6,609 nt of DNA from Desulfobacteraceae bacterium (GTDB taxonomy: Bacteria; Desulfobacterota; Desulfobacteria; Desulfobacterales; Desulfobacteraceae), in NCBI GenBank assembly GCA_024225895.1, contig JAAEMC010001006.1, forward strand, positions 1 to 6,609. Direction: 5' to 3'. This document shows positions 931 through 6,609 of this stretch, in pieces; the stretch's first letter is position 1, and each line of letters begins with the position of its first letter. A program made the position numbers and the translations under genes. The notes under the pieces are model-generated. The model made no database searches. It was not told the origin of the DNA and saw nothing but the letters and a program-made list of their open reading frames with translations.

Positions 931-1230
931 ATGCAGTTTATCGTAACAGGATATGATGGAACAGATGAAGGGGCTTTGGACAGGAGAATGGCTGCCCGTC
1001 AAGATCATCTTGAAATGGCAGCCAGCTTTTATCAAAGTGGACAATGGCTTTATGCTGCCGCCATTTTAAATGATGAAGCAAAAATGGCAGGCTCAATGAT
1101 TGTCTGTGAATTTCCATCCAAAGAAGCACTTGAAAAAGAATGGCTTGAAAAAGAACCCTATATTCTGGCCAATGTTTGGGAAAAGATAGAGATCAAAAGA
1201 GCACAGGTCGCCCCTTTTTGTGTGAAATAG
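931..1230 (+). CDS. YciI-family (YCII domain) protein
   Basis: A 99-residue protein, the usual size of a stand-alone YCII domain with its dimeric ferredoxin-like fold. Visible family features are an N-terminal beta-strand (MQFIVTGYDG), the RQDHLEMA segment in which H26 corresponds to the conserved histidine of the RxxHL motif, the AAAILNDEAKMAGSMIV strand-turn-strand region, a helix rich in Glu and Lys (63-74), and the closing EPYILANVWEKIEIK (75-89) matching the family's (D/E)PY...V.....V.P end. Known members are small cytosolic proteins of mostly unknown role, some with dehydrochlorinase-like or ligand-binding activity, so no reaction can be assigned. GGGAG at 916-920 lies 10 bases before the ATG. 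The next gene begins 43 bases downstream on the same strand with no terminator between, so the two may be co-transcribed. Confidence 0.85.
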   Translation: MQFIVTGYDGTDEGALDRRMAARQDHLEMAASFYQSGQWLYAAAILNDEAKMAGSMIVCEFPSKEALEKEWLEKEPYILANVWEKIEIKRAQVAPFCVK

Positions 1231-1273: not shown

Positions 1274-2311
1274 ATGAAAAGAATTGTTTTTATATGTTTA
1301 TTGGTGGTGTCTGCATTTATTGGCAATCATGTTGATGCATATCCAGGCAATATTCAAGATCTTATCCGGGATGCGCGGAACGGGGATGTTGAAGCAATGG
1401 TATTGCTTGGAACATCATATTACCACGGCAAAGGGGTGTTAAAAGATCCTTTTAAGGCCAAGTGCTGGATCAAAAAGGCCTACGATAATGGATCGCAAAA
1501 GGCTGCAAAAGTCTGGAATGATCTGGCGCTGTGGGAATATTCCGGAAAATGCGATGACTCCTTTGATGATGAGGTTACAGAAAAGTATCAAAAAAAAGAT
1601 ATCTTTACCGATCCTTTTACCGGCATGGTATTTGTTTATGTTCCCCAGGGGTGTTTTATTATGGGCTGCCACAACCGAGCCCAGGGGTGTAGAAAAGATG
1701 AAAAGCCTGCCCACAGTGTATGTGTTGATGGATTTTGGATGGGAAAATTTGAAGTGACCCAGGCGCAATGGGAATTGGTCAGGAAACAAAATCCGTCCCG
1801 GTTTAAAAGAGGCAGCCGGTATCCGGTTGAAAATGTTTCGTTTGAAGATGTTGATGCTTTTATACAAAGGCTCAATTCCCTGGGCCCCAATTCTTATTTG
1901 TTACCCACAGAAGCCCAGTGGGAATATGCCTGTCGTAATATGGGCATGAAAATCAATTTTCCTGACAAGGATGCATCCGATGCCCTCTATGAAAATTGCG
2001 GGAATTGTGATTCAGGACCTTATAAGAATGAAACCGCGCCGGTTGGAAGCTTTGTATCCAATGATCTTGGACTGTATGATATGGCCGGGAATGTAAGGGA
2101 ATGGTGCCGTGACGTTTACCACAAAGACGGGTATGAAATGCATTCAAAACTCGATCCTGTTGTAAAGGCCCGGGGTGCTTCAGAGGTTGTCAGAGGTGGT
2201 TCCTATATTGATAATATGAAGAACATTCGATGCACTGCCCGGCAAAAATCCATTCCGGCAATGAAAAGTGACTACATTGGTTTCCGTTTGGTATTAATTA
2301 AAGACAAGTGA
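1274..2311 (+). CDS. exported Sel1-repeat / FGE-sulfatase (SUMF1-like) protein without catalytic cysteines
   Basis: A 345-residue protein. Residues 1-22 form a signal peptide (MKR, hydrophobic core, cleavage expected after HVDA), so it is probably periplasmic. Residues about 27-80 resemble a Sel1-like repeat (DARNGDVEAMVLLGTSYYHG, then DPFKAKCWIKKAYDNGS). Residues about 115-341 are an FGE-sulfatase domain: FVYVPQGCFIMG (120-131), FWMGKFEVTQAQWELV (154-169), YPVENVSFEDVDAF (183-196), LLPTEAQWEYAC (209-220), GLYDMAGNVREWC (266-278), VVRGGSYIDN (305-314) and YIGFRLV (334-340). True formylglycine-generating enzymes carry two catalytic cysteines just after the GGS(Y/W) motif; here that segment reads IDNMKNIRCTAR with neither in place. 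Sulfatase activation is therefore unlikely, and a structural or ligand-binding role is more plausible. The mature protein has 11 cysteines, including a CGNC pair (242-245). AGGAG at 1263-1267 lies 6 bases before ATG, which fixes the start. Confidence 0.88.
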   Translation: MKRIVFICLLVVSAFIGNHVDAYPGNIQDLIRDARNGDVEAMVLLGTSYYHGKGVLKDPFKAKCWIKKAYDNGSQKAAKVWNDLALWEYSGKCDDSFDDEVTEKYQKKDIFTDPFTGMVFVYVPQGCFIMGCHNRAQGCRKDEKPAHSVCVDGFWMGKFEVTQAQWELVRKQNPSRFKRGSRYPVENVSFEDVDAFIQRLNSLGPNSYLLPTEAQWEYACRNMGMKINFPDKDASDALYENCGNCDSGPYKNETAPVGSFVSNDLGLYDMAGNVREWCRDVYHKDGYEMHSKLDPVVKARGASEVVRGGSYIDNMKNIRCTARQKSIPAMKSDYIGFRLVLIKDK

Positions 2312-2314
2312 AGT

Positions 2315-3346
2315 CTATTCAAATTCCGATCGGATAAATGCATTTAGTTCTTCATAACCGATTTTTTCCACCTTGGCTTTTCCAATTTGTTCCAAAAAGA
2401 CAAAGAAAAGATCCGAGCCCTGCTTCTTTTTGTCCCGACTGGCTGCATGAATGATATTTTTTGCATTATACGCCGGCTCAATTGGAAGTTGAAGATCTGC
2501 CAGCAGTCTTTTTATCCGCTGAACATCTGAATCAGCAATCATGCCTTTGAATCGGGAAAATTTTGCAGCCATTACCATGCCCATGGCAACCGCTCGTCCG
2601 TGGCCGGCGTTCTCAATTTTTTCAATGGCATGGCCAATGGTATGGCCAAAATTGAGTTTTCTTCTTTCTCCGGCCTCTTTTTCATCATTTTCCACTACCC
2701 GGGATTTAATTCTGACAGAATCTCTTACCAGTCTGAAAATGGTATCCAGATCCAGATTGAGGGCTTTTTCCTTGCTCTTTTCAAGAAACGCAAACATATT
2801 TGCGTCCGAGATTAGACCGTGTTTTACGATTTCTGCCATTCCATTGAAAATTTCTTTTTTGGGCAAGGTGGATAACATATCGATGTCGCAGATCACGAAC
2901 CTGGGTTGGTTAAAGACACCCACCATGTTTTTGTAGGCATCCAGGTTGACCCCATTTTTTCCGCCCACGCTGGCATCAACCTGTGAAAGCAGGGAAGTGG
3001 AAACAAAACCAAAATCCAGTCCCCGTAAAAATGTCGATGCTGCAAAGCCGGCTATGTCCGTGACAATCCCTCCCCCAATCCCTAAAATAAAGCTGGATCT
3101 GTCGCAAGAAAGACGGATTAATTCTTTATAAATATATTCGATTGTGGACAGGGTTTTATTCTTCTCTCCCTCACCAATGGTAATGATGGGGGCATCAGGG
3201 AACGCATCCTTGTAAAAATGATGGATGTTTTTGTCCGTAATAATGACTGTCTGGGTATCTGGAAGATAGTTCTTTATATTTTTAAAGCTTTCTCCCACGT
3301 ATATGGAAGAAAGCCCTTTTTCGACCTTCACTTGGAATGTTTCCAA
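2315..3346 (-). CDS. aroB: 3-dehydroquinate synthase AroB
   Basis: A 343-residue protein of normal AroB length that converts DAHP to 3-dehydroquinate, the second shikimate-pathway step, in the cytosol, using NAD+ and a divalent metal. Visible motifs are the NAD-binding GIGGGIVTDIAGFAAS (89-104), the active-site stretch SQVDASVGGKNGVN (121-134), AEIVKHG (171-177, with E172 as metal ligand), RRKLNFGHTIGHAIE (228-242, with H235 as metal ligand) and GHGRAVAMGM (248-257, with H249 as metal ligand). The usual HGEAV motif reads HGRAV here. The start is TTG at 3346-3344; AAGGA at 3360-3356 sits 9 bases upstream, inside the last codons of aroF. The aroF stop is only 5 bases before this start, so translational coupling and one shared transcript are likely. 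The 3' end meets the SUMF1-like gene after a 3-base gap. Confidence 0.96.
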   Translation of the reverse strand: METFQVKVEKGLSSIYVGESFKNIKNYLPDTQTVIITDKNIHHFYKDAFPDAPIITIGEGEKNKTLSTIEYIYKELIRLSCDRSSFILGIGGGIVTDIAGFAASTFLRGLDFGFVSTSLLSQVDASVGGKNGVNLDAYKNMVGVFNQPRFVICDIDMLSTLPKKEIFNGMAEIVKHGLISDANMFAFLEKSKEKALNLDLDTIFRLVRDSVRIKSRVVENDEKEAGERRKLNFGHTIGHAIEKIENAGHGRAVAMGMVMAAKFSRFKGMIADSDVQRIKRLLADLQLPIEPAYNAKNIIHAASRDKKKQGSDLFFVFLEQIGKAKVEKIGYEELNAFIRSEFE

Positions 3347-3351
3347 ATCTT

Positions 3352-4362
3352 TTAATCCTTTAGTATGATGGCGTGGATGGCATTCATTGTCTTGATGACT
3401 TTTGTAAACTGATCCGGGTATAGGGATTGTGCTCCGTCACTCATTGCTTCATCAGGGTTGTTATGCACCTCTATCATCATACCATCTGAACCCAAAGCAG
3501 CTGCAGCATAGGAAAGGGAAATCACCTGGTCTCGAACACCTGCGGCATGGCTGGGATCAACAATGATCGGCAGATGGCTCTCTTTTTTCACCGCAGGGAC
3601 CACAGAAAGATCCAGTGTATTCCTACTGTGCCTTACAAATGTTCTGACCCCTCTTTCACAGAGAATAATATTGTTGTTCCCCTTTTCCATGATATATTCA
3701 GCCGCCATCAGCCATTCCTGAAGCATGGCCGACATGCCTCTTTTCAGGAGAATCGGCTTTTTTGACTTGCCGGCCCGCCGAAGCAGGCTGAAATTCTGCA
3801 TATTTCGTGTGCCGATTTGCACCAAATCAGCAACTTCTTCAACCTGATCAAAATTTTGTACATCCATAACTTCTGTGACAATGGGAAGACCGGTTTCTTG
3901 TTTTACTTTTGCAAGATGCTCAAGCCCTTTTTTTCTAAGTCCCTGGAAAGAGTAAGGTGAGGTTCTAGGCTTAAATGCGCCCCCCCTGAACAATTTCGCA
4001 CCAGCCTCTTTGACTGATTTAGCAATGGATAACACTTGAGTTTCACTTTCAACAGCACAGGGGCCGGCAATGACCGGCATTGTGCCATCGCCGAAAACAG
4101 CATCACCAATTTTTACATGGGTGTTTTCCTGCTTAAACTCCCGGCTGACAAGTTTGTATGGTTTTGTCACCGGAATGACCTCTTTTACACCATTAAGGCC
4201 CAAAAAATGAGCTGCATCCACAGAATTTTTATTATTAAGGATTCCAATGGATACCCTGTTTCCACCTGGTATTGGACGGGCAGTATAGCCTCTTTTTTCA
4301 ATTGCTGTGACAATTGATTGAATTTTTTCTTCATTTGCATCTTTTTTCATTACAATAAGCAT
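3352..4362 (-). CDS. aroF: 3-deoxy-7-phosphoheptulonate (DAHP) synthase, type I-beta
   Basis: A 336-residue enzyme condensing phosphoenolpyruvate and erythrose 4-phosphate to DAHP, the committed step of aromatic biosynthesis. Residues 1 to about 66 form the ferredoxin-like regulatory domain typical of Thermotoga-type enzymes; from about 80 the TIM barrel shows AGPCAVES (99-106), LFRGGAFKPRTSPYSFQGL (124-142), LLKRGMSAMLQEW (205-217), ILCERGVRTF (233-242), DPSHAAG (269-275), MMIEVHNNPDEAMSDGAQSL (295-314). Metal ligands are expected at C102, H272, E298 and D309, the same numbers I recall for the Thermotoga maritima enzyme, which supports this start. A TTG three bases upstream (4365) could extend the frame by one residue, but GGAGG at 4373-4369 lies 6 bases from the ATG at 4362 and only 3 from the TTG. 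First gene of a pair with aroB, downstream of a Trp-rich leader peptide and terminator. Feedback by Tyr or Phe through the N-terminal domain is known in the family and inferred here. Confidence 0.96.
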   Translation of the reverse strand: MLIVMKKDANEEKIQSIVTAIEKRGYTARPIPGGNRVSIGILNNKNSVDAAHFLGLNGVKEVIPVTKPYKLVSREFKQENTHVKIGDAVFGDGTMPVIAGPCAVESETQVLSIAKSVKEAGAKLFRGGAFKPRTSPYSFQGLRKKGLEHLAKVKQETGLPIVTEVMDVQNFDQVEEVADLVQIGTRNMQNFSLLRRAGKSKKPILLKRGMSAMLQEWLMAAEYIMEKGNNNIILCERGVRTFVRHSRNTLDLSVVPAVKKESHLPIIVDPSHAAGVRDQVISLSYAAAALGSDGMMIEVHNNPDEAMSDGAQSLYPDQFTKVIKTMNAIHAIILKD

Positions 4363-4409: not shown

Positions 4410-4436
4410 AAAAAAAGGCTGCTCACAAAGCAGCCT
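4410..4436 (-). terminator. rho-independent terminator (attenuator) in the aroF leader
   Basis: On the minus strand AGGCTGCT (4436-4429) pairs perfectly with AGCAGCCT (4423-4416) around the loop TTGTG, followed by six further T residues (4415-4410). The plus strand has no T-run at this hairpin, so it acts leftward. It lies 37 bases before the aroF Shine-Dalgarno site and after a short Trp-rich reading frame, so it should terminate transcripts in the leader before aroF unless disrupted by upstream pairing. Confidence 0.85.
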
Positions 4437-4445
4437 GAAAAGTGA

Positions 4446-4476
4446 AAAAGGCTGCCAGTTCTATCTGCAGCCTTTT
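4446..4476 (-). promoter_or_regulatory. upstream leader hairpin (segments B and C)
   Basis: AAAAGGCTGC (4476-4467) pairs with GCAGCCTTTT (4455-4446), giving a 10-bp stem around an 11-base loop. The GC core plus the trailing T5 also resembles a weak terminator. The left arm is alternatively complementary to the leader coding region (4528-4519). The right arm is alternatively complementary to the first arm of the terminator hairpin: GGCAGCCT (4456-4449) with AGGCTGCT (4436-4429), 8 pairs including one G-U. It is therefore the switching element between the leader peptide and the terminator. Confidence 0.75.
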
Positions 4477-4528
4477 GATTTTATTCTATTTAATCATTGT
4501 CAATAATCTGATTGATTTGCTGCAGATA
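4462..4528 (-). repeat. 10-bp inverted repeat linking the Trp codons to the leader hairpin (A:B pairing)
   Basis: TATCTGCAGC (4528-4519), which begins at the base after the last Trp codon, is an exact complement of GCTGCAGATA (4471-4462), which overlaps the left arm of the next hairpin by GCTGC. The two pairings cannot coexist. Flanking bases do not extend the match. Confidence 0.8.
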
Positions 4529-4609
4529 CCACCATTGCCAGAGCCAGGCGGCAGCATCCTGGTTGAATTTTGTTAAAATAGCTTCTGTTTCTATGTATAA
4601 GTACAACAT
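4490..4609 (-). CDS. Trp-rich leader peptide of the aroF-aroB operon
   Basis: A 39-codon frame from ATG at 4609 to TAA at 4492-4490. It begins MLYLYIETEA, and its second half contains AAAWLWQWWYLQQ (residues 19-31), with Trp at 22, 24, 26 and 27 and Tyr at 28. Two more Tyr (3, 5) and one Phe (15) make 8 of 39 residues aromatic. Such clustering next to competing hairpins and a terminator is the signature of a trpL-type attenuation peptide: scarce charged tRNA-Trp stalls the ribosome and alters leader RNA folding. The peptide itself probably has no function. No Shine-Dalgarno site precedes the ATG, and the best promoter would place the transcript start only a few bases upstream, so either translation is nearly leaderless or the true start differs. 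The Trp cluster and stop codon do not depend on which start is used. The gene is not a recognised named locus; trpL would be an analogy only. Confidence 0.8.
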   Translation of the reverse strand: MLYLYIETEAILTKFNQDAAAWLWQWWYLQQINQIIDND

Positions 4610-4620
4610 AATCTGGTTTG

Positions 4621-4647
4621 ACTATATTTTTTCGGGAAATTTGTCAA
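4621..4647 (-). promoter_or_regulatory. probable sigma-70 promoter of the leader-aroF-aroB transcript
   Basis: The minus strand has a perfect -35 TTGACA (4647-4642) and a near-consensus -10 TATAGT (4626-4621) separated by 15 bases, slightly shorter than the preferred 17. Very A/T-rich sequence lies upstream. Transcription would begin near 4614, immediately before the leader peptide ATG. Confidence 0.5.
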
Positions 4648-4703: not shown

Positions 4704-4763
4704 TTCATAGTTCAAATGAATTAAATTCTTAAAATAACAAAACTTGAATCGGTGCGAAAAATT

Positions 4764-5414
4764 ATGGAAATAAAAGTAATCATTGCAGATGACCACGCCA
4801 TAATGCGAGAGGGGCTTAAAAGCCTTCTTGAAAAATATCAGATCAATGTCGTTGCAATTGCAAATAATGGACGAGAAGCCATTGAGTTAGCCATAAAGCA
4901 CCAGCCTGATATTATGATTATGGATATTGCCATGCCAGATTTAAACGGCATGGAAGCTACCCTGCGAATCAAGCAGGAATTACCCGATGTAAAAATAATT
5001 GCGCTTTCAATGCACTCCAGCAAAAAAATTATTGATAGAATGTTTGTTGCCGGTGCATCTGGGTACATTTTAAAAGAAAGCGCGTTTACTGAACTTTTTG
5101 AAGCCATTCAAGAGGTCAACAAAGGCAATTTTTATTTAAGTCCCGCTGTGGCAAGAATGTTTGTAGATACCCATGGGTTTGATGTACCGAAAACCGATAT
5201 CCGGCCTAAATTTAATGAAATTTCTCGAAAAGAGCGTGAAATTCTTCAGCTCATTGCTGAAGGGGAAAAAACCAGGGATATAGCTGGTAAATTGAATATC
5301 AGCATCAAAACTGTGGAAACTCATCGAAGAAATATTATGAAAAAATTGAATATATTCAGTGTGGCTGGTTCAACCAAATTTGCAATTAAAGAAGGAATTA
5401 TCTCCTTGGACTAA
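4764..5414 (+). CDS. NarL/FixJ-family response regulator (REC-LuxR HTH)
   Basis: A 216-residue cytosolic transcription regulator. Residues 1 to about 118 are a receiver domain with all key residues: acidic D9/D10 (IIADDHAIMREGL), phospho-acceptor D54 (IMIMDIAMPDLNG), S82 (IIALSMHSS) and K104 (GYILKES). Residues about 152-213 are a LuxR-type helix-turn-helix: ISRKEREILQLIAEGEKT, then IAGKLNISIKTVETHRRNI as the recognition region, then MKKLNI. Length is normal for the family. A GTG at 4752 would add four residues (MRKI), but the ATG at 4764 gives the usual short lead into the first beta-strand and is preferred; no strong Shine-Dalgarno site supports either. It is divergent from the aroF leader and is followed after 127 bases by a hybrid histidine kinase on the same strand, a likely but unproven partner. 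Target genes are unknown. Confidence 0.93.
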   Translation: MEIKVIIADDHAIMREGLKSLLEKYQINVVAIANNGREAIELAIKHQPDIMIMDIAMPDLNGMEATLRIKQELPDVKIIALSMHSSKKIIDRMFVAGASGYILKESAFTELFEAIQEVNKGNFYLSPAVARMFVDTHGFDVPKTDIRPKFNEISRKEREILQLIAEGEKTRDIAGKLNISIKTVETHRRNIMKKLNIFSVAGSTKFAIKEGIISLD

Positions 5415-5434
5415 ACATTTAGTAAGGAGTGTTT

Positions 5435-5554
5435 TTGGAAAAAATCAGGTTTTCCCTGATTGATATTCTATGGTTTTATCTATTATATTTATACGAGTTT
5501 AAGTTTTCATTGGAATTACAAAAAAATAGGGTTGGGTACAAATGGAATACATAA
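5435..5554 (+). CDS. possible small hydrophobic ORF overlapping the kinase start
   Basis: A 39-codon frame starting at TTG 5435 (GTG 5429 is also in frame) with AAGGAG at 5424-5429 spaced 5 bases from the TTG, a better ribosome binding site than either neighbouring signalling gene has. The peptide has an aromatic, hydrophobic centre (LIDILWFYLLYLYEF) between charged ends, and its stop at 5552-5554 lies inside the first codons of the kinase frame, which it could couple translationally. No known family is recognised. It may well be non-coding, since the interval is A/T-rich and also carries a plausible promoter. Confidence 0.25.
   Translation: MEKIRFSLIDILWFYLLYLYEFKFSLELQKNRVGYKWNT
5460..5489 (+). 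promoter_or_regulatory. possible promoter of the hybrid kinase gene
   Basis: TTGATA (5460-5465, 5 of 6 consensus) and TATATT (5484-5489, 5 of 6) are spaced 18 bases. Transcription would start near 5496, about 46 bases before the kinase ATG. If real, the kinase can be expressed separately from the response regulator. Confidence 0.35.
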
Positions 5555-6609
5555 ACTTAAGAGGGGATAAACCAGATGCGGTCGAAGCACTTGCTAGTGG
5601 TTTAGCCCACGATTTCAGACACCTATTGGACGCTATAAAGGGCAGGGCATCTATAATGATGAACACAGTCAGCCCGTCTGACCCCCTTTATGGCCATGTC
5701 GTTGAAATTATCAATTGCATTAATAAAGGGTCTGACATCGCCAATCAATTGCTTGGTTTCGCCAAAGCAAGCGAGTACTATAAAAGCTCTGTTGACGTAA
5801 ACCGGATTGTACGAAATTCAATGGAAAACCTGAATCTTGCCGGAAAGAATATTACCCTTGATGTTGATCTTAACTCAAACCCGCTGATGATTGACGCAGA
5901 TCCTGAAAAAATTAACCAGGTGATCAAAAGTATTGTTGAAAATGCGGTAGATGCCATGCCTGTCGGAGGAAAACTAACCGTAGTTACCGAGTCTGCCTCA
6001 ATCTTAAATAGTACGGCAGAATCTTACGGACTTGCACCTGGTTTTTTTGTGAAAATTACTTTTACAGACTCTGGCCTGGGTATGGAAAGAGAAGTTATTG
6101 AAAAGATCTTTCATCCTTTTTTTTGTGCTGATCCTGAAAATTTCCCCGACAAAAGGGGATTGAGCCTTACGTTTGCCAAGGAAATCATTCAAAATCACGA
6201 GGGTATTATTGATGTGTGGAGTTCACCAGGTGTGGGATCTTCATTTTCGGTTATCCTTCCCTTGAAGGAAACCACGGGTAGTATTGATATCCCGGCCGAG
6301 GATGAAAAATTAATCTTGGGCCATGAATCGGTCTTACTGGTGGATGATGAAGAACGGATTTTAACCGTGGGAAGAGAAATTTGTAAGGCCTTGGGGTATA
6401 GTGTCCTCACAGCTTCTTCCGGAAAAGAGGCCATTAAGATTTACAGCAAAAAGAAACATGATATTAATCTGGTTATCCTGGACATGATTATGCCGGAAAT
6501 GAATGGGCTGGAAACTTTTATGGAGCTTAAAAAATATAATCCGAATATAAAGGTTTTATTATCCACCGGGTATTCCATTGATGAAAAAGCTCAGGAAATG
6601 CTTAAACAG
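5542..6609 (+). CDS. sensorless hybrid histidine kinase with degenerate H-box (3' end cut by window edge)
   Basis: An open frame of 356 codons running off the right edge. TAG at 5527-5529 is in frame upstream and ATG 5542 is the only sensible start; AGGG at 5528-5531 is a weak Shine-Dalgarno site. Residues 15-75 form the dimerisation/phospho-acceptor region with H23 in SGLAHDFRHLLDAIKG. Residues about 120-241 are the ATPase domain: N-box ENAVDAM (133-139), G1 box DSGLGM (176-181), F-box region IFHPFFCAD (189-197), and VWSSPGVGSSFSVILP (225-240). Residues about 262 to the end are a receiver with D268/D269 and phospho-acceptor D314 (LVILDMIMPEMNG) and S341/T342; the lysine expected later lies outside the window. 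Only about 15 residues precede the H-box, so there is no sensor or membrane domain. The usual HDFNN is HDFRH, and the usual GxGTGLGL G2 box is DKRGLSL, so kinase activity is doubtful. The pairing with the upstream response regulator is inferred from position. Confidence 0.85.
   Translation, partial: MEYINLRGDKPDAVEALASGLAHDFRHLLDAIKGRASIMMNTVSPSDPLYGHVVEIINCINKGSDIANQLLGFAKASEYYKSSVDVNRIVRNSMENLNLAGKNITLDVDLNSNPLMIDADPEKINQVIKSIVENAVDAMPVGGKLTVVTESASILNSTAESYGLAPGFFVKITFTDSGLGMEREVIEKIFHPFFCADPENFPDKRGLSLTFAKEIIQNHEGIIDVWSSPGVGSSFSVILPLKETTGSIDIPAEDEKLILGHESVLLVDDEERILTVGREICKALGYSVLTASSGKEAIKIYSKKKHDINLVILDMIMPEMNGLETFMELKKYNPNIKVLLSTGYSIDEKAQEMLKQ

Follow-up and report, generated by a model that had tools for sequence, protein, structure and literature searches.

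Upstream of the aroF-aroB gene pair of a Desulfobacula-like Desulfobacteraceae bacterium (assembly GCA_024225895.1, contig JAAEMC010001006.1), a short Trp-rich reading frame is followed by inverted repeats, and the question arises whether and how a tryptophan signal acts on the first genes of the shikimate pathway in this organism. The textbook case of such an arrangement is trpL of E. coli, in which a leader with Trp codons precedes alternative hairpins and a terminator, with four segments and one terminator in total. From our point of view, the 6,609-nt stretch analysed here (hereafter the window) carries a predicted Trp attenuator ahead of aroF-aroB, in which the ribosome on the leader would decide over two chained terminators, and a likely TrpR-family site at the promoter that would provide a second control by Trp. 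We assign a probability of about 0.8 to this reading.

The aroF leader and its recurrence in relatives

The aroF gene (3352..4362, minus strand; ATG 4362-4360) encodes a DAHP synthase with an N-terminal ferredoxin-like region (NCBIfam subfamily PRK08673) and is preceded by a GGAGG at 4373-4369. Further upstream on the same strand lies the leader frame (4609-4490), which comprises 39 codons plus stop, reads MLYLYIETEAILTKFNQDAAAWLWQWWYLQQINQIIDND and is recognized from its codons and from the Trp clusters kept in relatives. Its codons 22, 24, 26 and 27 encode Trp and are followed by Tyr, the cluster reading WLWQWWY; when the 390-nt intergenic region was dinucleotide-shuffled 20,000 times, a closed frame with at least four TGG per six codons, counted on either strand, arose once. 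Past the frame, AAAAGGCTGCAGATA, CTGGCAGCCTTTT, AGGCTGCT, AGCAGCCT, a T-run, GGAGG and the aroF ATG succeed one another on the minus strand.

A promoter-like pair of hexamers, TTGACA (4647-4642) and TATAGT (4626-4621), can be assigned by sequence at 4621..4647 (minus). Its spacer of 15 nt left it unlisted by the promoter scan, which allowed spacers of 16-18; the aroF promoters of relatives mostly read TTGACA-16-TATAAT at the same place. The predicted transcription start lies a few nucleotides 5' of the leader ATG. Since no Shine-Dalgarno sequence was seen before this ATG and since it stands 11 nt past the -10 box TATAGT, translation of the leader is predicted to need leaderless initiation. The Rfam scan of the window returned seven matches up to E = 5, none of them above its own cut-off. 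No match fell on the leader strand of 4410-4609, and the sole listed match overlapping this interval, on the opposite strand, scored 17.9 bits against a cut-off of 191. The curated leader and riboswitch families of Rfam include the trp leader and the T-box.

Among the first close relatives found by protein, the records of which are named Desulfobacula sp., Desulfobacteraceae bacterium or Deltaproteobacteria bacterium, five of six have frames such as MMFLYIETNIKQQQTCKNAAANFPRWRWWWINACSNGLT before aroF, and one (L009) has none. For a broader count, a leader was defined as a closed frame of 10-70 codons that ends 40-300 nt before aroF and contains at least three TGG per seven codons. The family set consisted of 59 loci from 57 genomes (G072 and G033 being represented twice), namely L001, the window's own locus, and L010-L069 minus L022 and L068 with incomplete upstream regions; it omits the named duplicates L004-L009, the repeat L070 and the paralogues L002, L003 and L071. 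A Trp-cluster leader was present at 22 of these 59 loci (14 of 2,950 in shuffles, 0 of 59 on the reverse strand) and at 41 of 77 loci from other families of the order (31 of 3,850 in shuffles, 2 of 77 on the reverse strand), the order set being the best 77 of 121 places outside the family, with L128 and L149 retained in n despite their short upstream regions. The strict rule was failed by the other 37 family loci and by 36 of the best 77 of 121 order loci; eight family loci that fail it (L024, L025, L031, L035, L042, L043, L046 and L049) bear a leader by eye. In the phylum sample of 29 loci besides L001, six qualified, or five of 27 without two genomes of the same order. The Trp leader is widespread and far from universal. 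In addition, L016 (genus g5) keeps both hairpins upstream of aroF without the -10 box, the leader frame and segment 1 (see below), as a result of either a natural deletion or an assembly error.

The preliminary description of this DNA had claimed that a Trp frame, competing repeats, a terminator hairpin and the ribosome binding site of aroF follow each other in order on one strand, which was borne out with exact coordinates, and the check that it proposed, namely for conservation of the Trp cluster and the hairpins in close relatives, did not refute it given the family and order counts above. It did not contain the hairpin 4476-4446 with its T's, the TTGACA/TATAGT promoter and a palindrome at 4605-4586.

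Competing helices and two putative terminators

Behind the Trp cluster, five RNA segments can be distinguished on the minus strand. Segment 1 (TATCTGCAGC, 4519..4528) lies directly past the last Trp codon and has segment 2 as its predicted partner. Segment 2 (4462..4476) contains both the 5' arm of putative terminator 1 (AAAAGGCTGC, 4476-4467) and the stretch that would pair with segment 1 (GCTGCAGATA, 4471-4462). Segment 3 (GCAGCCTTTT, 4446..4455) provides the 3' arm of terminator 1 and is an alternative partner of segment 4 (AGGCTGCT, 4429..4436), the 5' arm of putative terminator 2. The latter is completed by segment 5 (4410..4423), which consists of the arm AGCAGCCT at 4423-4416 and the U-run 4416-4410. 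A GC-rich hairpin with a U-run ahead of the first gene is present: terminator 2 (4436-4416) forms nine pairs followed by TTTTTTT and has the most pairs among the nine hairpins listed by the scan of the window, a shuffled window averaging 6.8 such sites. Terminator 1, the hairpin 4476-4446 plus T's, has a loop too long for that scan.

In the window, helix 1:2 has ten pairs and both hairpins are intact, the calculated energies being -17.0 kcal/mol for 1:2 (whole span folded), -9.8 for 3:4, -14.7 for 2:3 and -13.4 for 4:5. The RNA 4528-4410 folds with a z-score of -2.66, and 5 of 200 shuffles fold as well as it does. The helices 1:2, 2:3, 3:4 and 4:5 each exclude the neighbouring ones, with which they share an arm, and consequently only two sets are consistent, namely 1:2 together with 3:4, in which no terminator is present, or 2:3 together with 4:5, in which both are. 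With four helices chained in this way, a single decision of the ribosome would determine the state of both tandem terminators. When segment 1 was excluded from the window fold, 2:3 and 4:5 formed together, and for this reason the classical four-segment reading in trpL numbering was discarded in favour of five segments.

We infer that, with charged tRNA-Trp being scarce, the ribosome would stall on the Trp codons and segment 1 would pair with segment 2. This would free segment 3 for segment 4, so that neither terminator would form and aroF-aroB would be transcribed. With plentiful Trp, the ribosome would reach the stop codon and, in the geometry typical of the relatives, cover segment 1, whereupon 2:3 and 4:5 would form and transcription would end.

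The helices were evaluated in an alignment (A1) of 27 hand-picked family leaders with two hairpins, from which the single-hairpin leaders L024, L028 and L042 of genus g4 as well as L016 were excluded. Helix 3:4 is the best paired of the four, with 97.5% of cells paired, followed by 2:3 with 93.4% (0 of 500 shuffles as high in either case). Helix 1:2 reaches 78.7% (a level attained by 7 of 500 shuffles; 26-42% in slid controls) and is unexceptional for its covariation score (103 of 500) and for pairs changed on both sides (200 of 500). Helix 4:5, with 88.2%, is no better than shuffles (100 of 500 as high) and is poor in genus g13. For the mutually exclusive helices, the signal of compensating changes is clearest in 2:3 and 3:4 and fainter in 1:2, and 4:5 shows none by cells paired. 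Leader by leader, helix 1:2 outdid shuffles at p <= 0.05 in the family for 14 of 28 leaders and in the order for 15 of 39, figures that are noisy because the hairpin picker sometimes took 3:4 for terminator 1 (e.g., in L001); seven family loci whose two-Trp frames are spurious (L023, L032, L034, L044, L061, L062 and L064) were excluded from this count.

It is conceivable, if rather unlikely, that the system is a simple trpL-type attenuator, in which only 4:5 terminates and 2:3 either serves as an antiterminator or remains from the duplication of a hairpin, without a coupled double stop. In line with this, the last U-run TTTTTTATT is almost invariant while the first one is interrupted by other bases in several genomes, and the leaders of genus g4 have a single hairpin. 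Moreover, duplication of a hairpin alone would yield complementarity between segments 3 and 4, which is why arms were also swapped between genomes. In these swaps, the arms of a leader's own genome outpaired those of other genomes for 1:2, 2:3 and 3:4, with 0 of 5,000 permutations being as good for the family, the order or both combined, although the permutations leave some relatedness in. The 3' arm of terminator 1 likewise pairs better with the 5' arm of terminator 2 than with shuffled arms (p <= 0.05), which holds for 14 of the 15 family cases and for 23 of the 26 from the order. Both the swap and the two-hairpin test limited the loop to 16 nt. Of the 61 leaders that have any hairpin, 41 carry two terminator-like ones next to each other. 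That 3:4 is the best-paired helix and tracks each genome's own sequence, that the two hairpins so often stand side by side, and that 2:3 and 4:5 of the window co-form when 1:2 and 3:4 are missing all argue against a single terminating hairpin.

The ribosome covers about 12 nt downstream and about 15 nt upstream of its decoding site. Across the 27 leaders, the median distance from the start of the last Trp codon to the core of segment 1 is 14 nt and that from segment 1 to the stop codon 12 nt, the latter being at most 15 nt in 21 of 27. With this typical spacing, which fits most of the 27 leaders and not the window, segment 1 would stay free during a stall and be largely covered once the ribosome is at the stop. 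The window itself is an outlier, with 6 nt between the last Trp codon and the core of segment 1 and 26 nt between segment 1 and the stop. Here, a stall at codons 22 and 24 would leave segment 1 free, but a ribosome that has reached the stop would come to lie between segments 1 and 2, so that it would have to hold the two apart rather than cover segment 1.

This atypical stop spacing is the main doubt on the window's own copy of the leader. One could speculate that this copy is decaying, the long distance to the stop (26 nt versus a median of 12) having uncoupled it from Trp, and that the palindrome at the promoter does most of the regulation; the absence of leaders in L016 and in related genera that keep the palindrome would agree with this. 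However, decay should erode the four Trp codons, the ten-pair helix 1:2 and the two hairpins, all of which are intact in the window, and the window's palindrome itself carries three mismatches. We hence regard loss of function in this copy as improbable.

Still less probable is that the leader acts as an arrest peptide that senses free tryptophan, as tnaC does, rather than uncharged tRNA-Trp. The late position of the Trp codons in the frame would suit such a peptide, and a leader-dependent decision on termination is predicted either way. However, no residue context beyond the Trp cluster is shared across families, and the mixed clusters of genus g10, in which Trp is combined with Tyr and Phe (YWWWRYYWFF), and of genus g14 are better suited to sensing of codon speed.

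The palindrome at the promoter

The predicted start of transcription is followed by a 20-bp inverted repeat (TGTACTTATACATAGAAACA, 4586..4605, minus), which overlaps leader codons 2-8 and is a candidate TrpR-family operator. It lies 15 nt past the -10 box and differs from the symmetric consensus at three positions. The stretch encoding FLYTET (codons 2-8) is conserved as DNA (TGTTCTTRTRYAYAGAAACA), and the motif can be written as TGTTTCTRTRYAYAGAAACA. A palindrome of this kind is present at 36 of the 59 family aroF loci, always 11-15 nt past the -10 box, with shuffled upstream regions matching in 5 of 1,180 cases. Leader and palindrome occur together in 24 of 30 leader-bearing loci, and the other six (genera g7, g10, g12 and g14) have the leader without the palindrome. 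Conversely, all 12 loci of genus g9 that were read keep promoter and palindrome without a Trp leader, some of them even without an ATG at this place. By eye, g9 aroF loci such as L023 and L036 have lost leader and hairpins and carry, downstream of the palindrome, a T-rich remnant that resembles the end of terminator 2.

Beyond aroF, the symmetric pattern has 117 sites with at most two mismatches in 86 family genomes compared to 10 for a reversed control. Thirty of the 117 sites were read as loci (L073-L102) and lie before trpE (13), a trpB-like gene (8), an aroG-type DAHP synthase gene (3), aroF (2) or none of these (4). In one g4 genome, two palindromes stand 7 nt apart before a trpB-like gene (L086:1501-1547). 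Three of 13 trpR loci that were read, a non-random sample in which L109-L113 and L115 were hand-chosen, some of them for lying near trpR, have the palindrome 16-38 nt before trpR; none was found near the trpR-family gene of the window's genome. A TrpR-family protein was found in 65 of the 86 genomes. Site and protein co-occur in 56 of them, nine have the protein only, seven the site only and 14 neither (Fisher p = 8.5e-6, uncorrected for relatedness and completeness). The TrpR-family protein of the window's genome (L108, 838-1104) passes the Pfam Trp_repressor threshold (70.4 versus 27 bits) and stays below that of NCBIfam TrpR (49.5 versus 67.25).

Taken together, the palindrome is likely an operator of the TrpR family, to which the Trp-loaded protein would bind. 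The window's palindrome is the only site with up to three mismatches in its assembly, and the reversed control pattern gives four there; given these numbers, the case for this particular site is made by its position and by its relatives. The trp operator of E. coli probably differs in sequence from the palindrome found here.

The conservation of the 5' end of the frame, with codons 2-8 kept over genera g1, g4, g5, g8 and g13, could alternatively point to a functional small protein with the Trp cluster as part of its function. This is highly improbable and was rejected since the bases are retained where the frame is lost, as in the 12 g9 loci described above. Furthermore, the conserved stretch coincides with an inverted repeat that also precedes other Trp genes, and the remaining peptide is variable. 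Finally, a chance frame in front of an ordinary terminator of an upstream transcript is next to negligible: Trp-rich frames do arise in shuffles at the looser threshold (14 of 2,950 and 31 of 3,850), whereas the single hit in 20,000 shuffles, the conservation counts, the helix pairing and the arm swaps speak against it, and there is no upstream transcript to end on the minus strand because the neighbouring upstream gene is divergent.

Place in the aromatic pathway and among known systems

The aroB gene (2315..3346, minus; TIGR01357) encodes 3-dehydroquinate synthase, follows just downstream of aroF and is the only one found in the assembly. In the family, aroF is followed by aroB at 57 of 61 loci, and an attenuator belonging to an aroF-headed trp operon can accordingly be dismissed, aroF-trpE being seen in L067 only. 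This locus holds a second aroF copy of genome G033 directly before trpE. A second full-length DAHP synthase of the window's genome forms a fusion with prephenate dehydratase and ACT (L071:6235-8103, minus) and shows no Trp leader within the 281 nt upstream; there is also a third, weaker match (37% identity over residues 97-326). Consequently, Trp control would cover one of the DAHP synthases, and, as predicted from the sequence, Trp would set this enzyme together with the only aroB found. The claim in the preliminary description that a Trp signal throttles the whole aromatic pathway rather than the Trp branch alone is thus weakened by this fusion in the same genome and is only partly right; aroB, for its part, was found once. 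Long frames that match the same query as the fusion recur in many family genomes.

A true trpE was not found in the window's assembly, which is 81% complete. The single match of this search, below the cut-off, is a chorismate-binding enzyme that resembles a PabB fusion by eye (L203:622-2907, minus). Weak trpE-like tblastn matches occur in L132, L135, L136 and L139, and the first downstream frame in L132, L135 and L139 is one that we take by eye to be cinA-like. Among 12 family trpE upstream regions that were read, seven (L090, L096-L100 and L102) have their own Trp-cluster leader and hairpin, and in L101 the leader frame is apparently deleted. In genomes of genus g3, aroG-type DAHP synthase genes lie behind Tyr/Phe-rich frames (MNFDFTGIYYYFSTYFYRSLPVLF, MNLNFPGIYYYFITFFHGGCP), as read in L073 (upstream of 1788) and L074 (upstream of 1915); together with a hairpin and T-run, these could by eye represent a Tyr/Phe attenuator of another DAHP synthase class. 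Elsewhere in the window, a divergent gene for a NarL/FixJ-type response regulator, which is also divergent in the relatives L094 and L095, precedes a gene that resembles a histidine kinase, includes a receiver domain and extends past the end of the window (4752-6609, plus). The frame at 1274-2311 (plus) has weak, below-cut-off matches to GldK and PvdO, which are formylglycine-generating-enzyme-like; the frame at 931-1230 (plus) is YciI-like, below cut-off.

As a class, Trp attenuators are already known. What would be unusual here, on the sequence evidence and under the mechanism that we infer, is that two terminators are chained and that an operator lies within the leader frame. Like E. coli trpL with its TrpR operator, the locus combines clustered Trp codons, alternative hairpins, a U-run terminator and a Trp repressor operator (a candidate one here) at the promoter. 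It differs in that it precedes aroF-aroB instead of trpEDCBA, in having five segments and two chained terminators rather than four and one, and in that the candidate operator overlaps leader codons whose ATG follows the predicted start by a few nucleotides without a visible Shine-Dalgarno sequence. The trpE attenuators of the same family share a related palindrome upstream, a Trp-cluster leader and a GC-rich hairpin with U-run; there, however, the palindrome lies upstream of the -35 box and not past the start, and the gene is trpE. In Corynebacterium glutamicum, a putative leader-peptide attenuator likewise precedes a DAHP synthase gene, aroF, with a Phe-Tyr-Phe leader according to the accessible part of PMC4046766; its codons are for Phe and Tyr instead of Trp, and the lineages are unrelated. 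Trp leader peptides without a 5' UTR, as predicted here, and with two hairpins behind them are also reported for trpL1 and trpL2 of Streptomyces lividans, which are leaderless and located upstream of trpE and trpS, and the accessible part of that report describes no chained double switch or operator (PMC8079986).

For E. coli, TrpR targets and attenuation of the trp operon are described in parts of PMC5343134, which also assigns TrpR regulons to eight gammaproteobacterial lineages, with palindromic sites at trpE, trpR and, in some lineages, DAHP synthase genes, and considers other classes to lack TrpR. The motif found here is the one given above, and the host lies outside those eight lineages. 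In the text available of PMC1173090, the aromatic supraoperon of D. vulgaris is among those apparently under attenuation, as taken from a prediction database. A term look-up in the accessible text of PMC1262725, PMC2965389 and PMC1183508 gave no mention of aroF, and among the open-access titles and beginnings of abstracts that were listed, none points to a Trp leader before a DAHP synthase gene in this lineage; subscription papers or databases may hold such predictions.

Overall, the Trp-specific, ribosome-mediated attenuator before aroF-aroB that had been postulated from the window finds good support in conservation and in competing helices that covary. Charged tRNA-Trp would be a Trp signal, though probably not the sole one in view of the likely TrpR-family operator at the promoter, and the trpL-like layout holds for the Trp frame, the competing helices and the terminator, while the arrangement is richer by a second, chained terminator. 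We see even odds for the wider proposal of a domino attenuator, in which one stall flips two tandem terminators and which, fitted to a DAHP synthase gene and joined, in the family of the window, to a TrpR-family operator within the codons of a near-leaderless peptide, would have persisted across the order and beyond, with operator and attenuator being lost or kept independently by genus. Since the genera differ naturally in having the operator only, the attenuator only or both, and one or two terminators, they offer a comparative system for the added value of a second terminator or sensor. The palindromes further suggest that TrpR-type regulons extend beyond the gammaproteobacterial lineages assigned in the accessible part of PMC5343134. 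If the reading is true, a large bacterial order would let Trp control entry into the shikimate pathway by both the RNA and the DNA mechanism of the E. coli trp operon.
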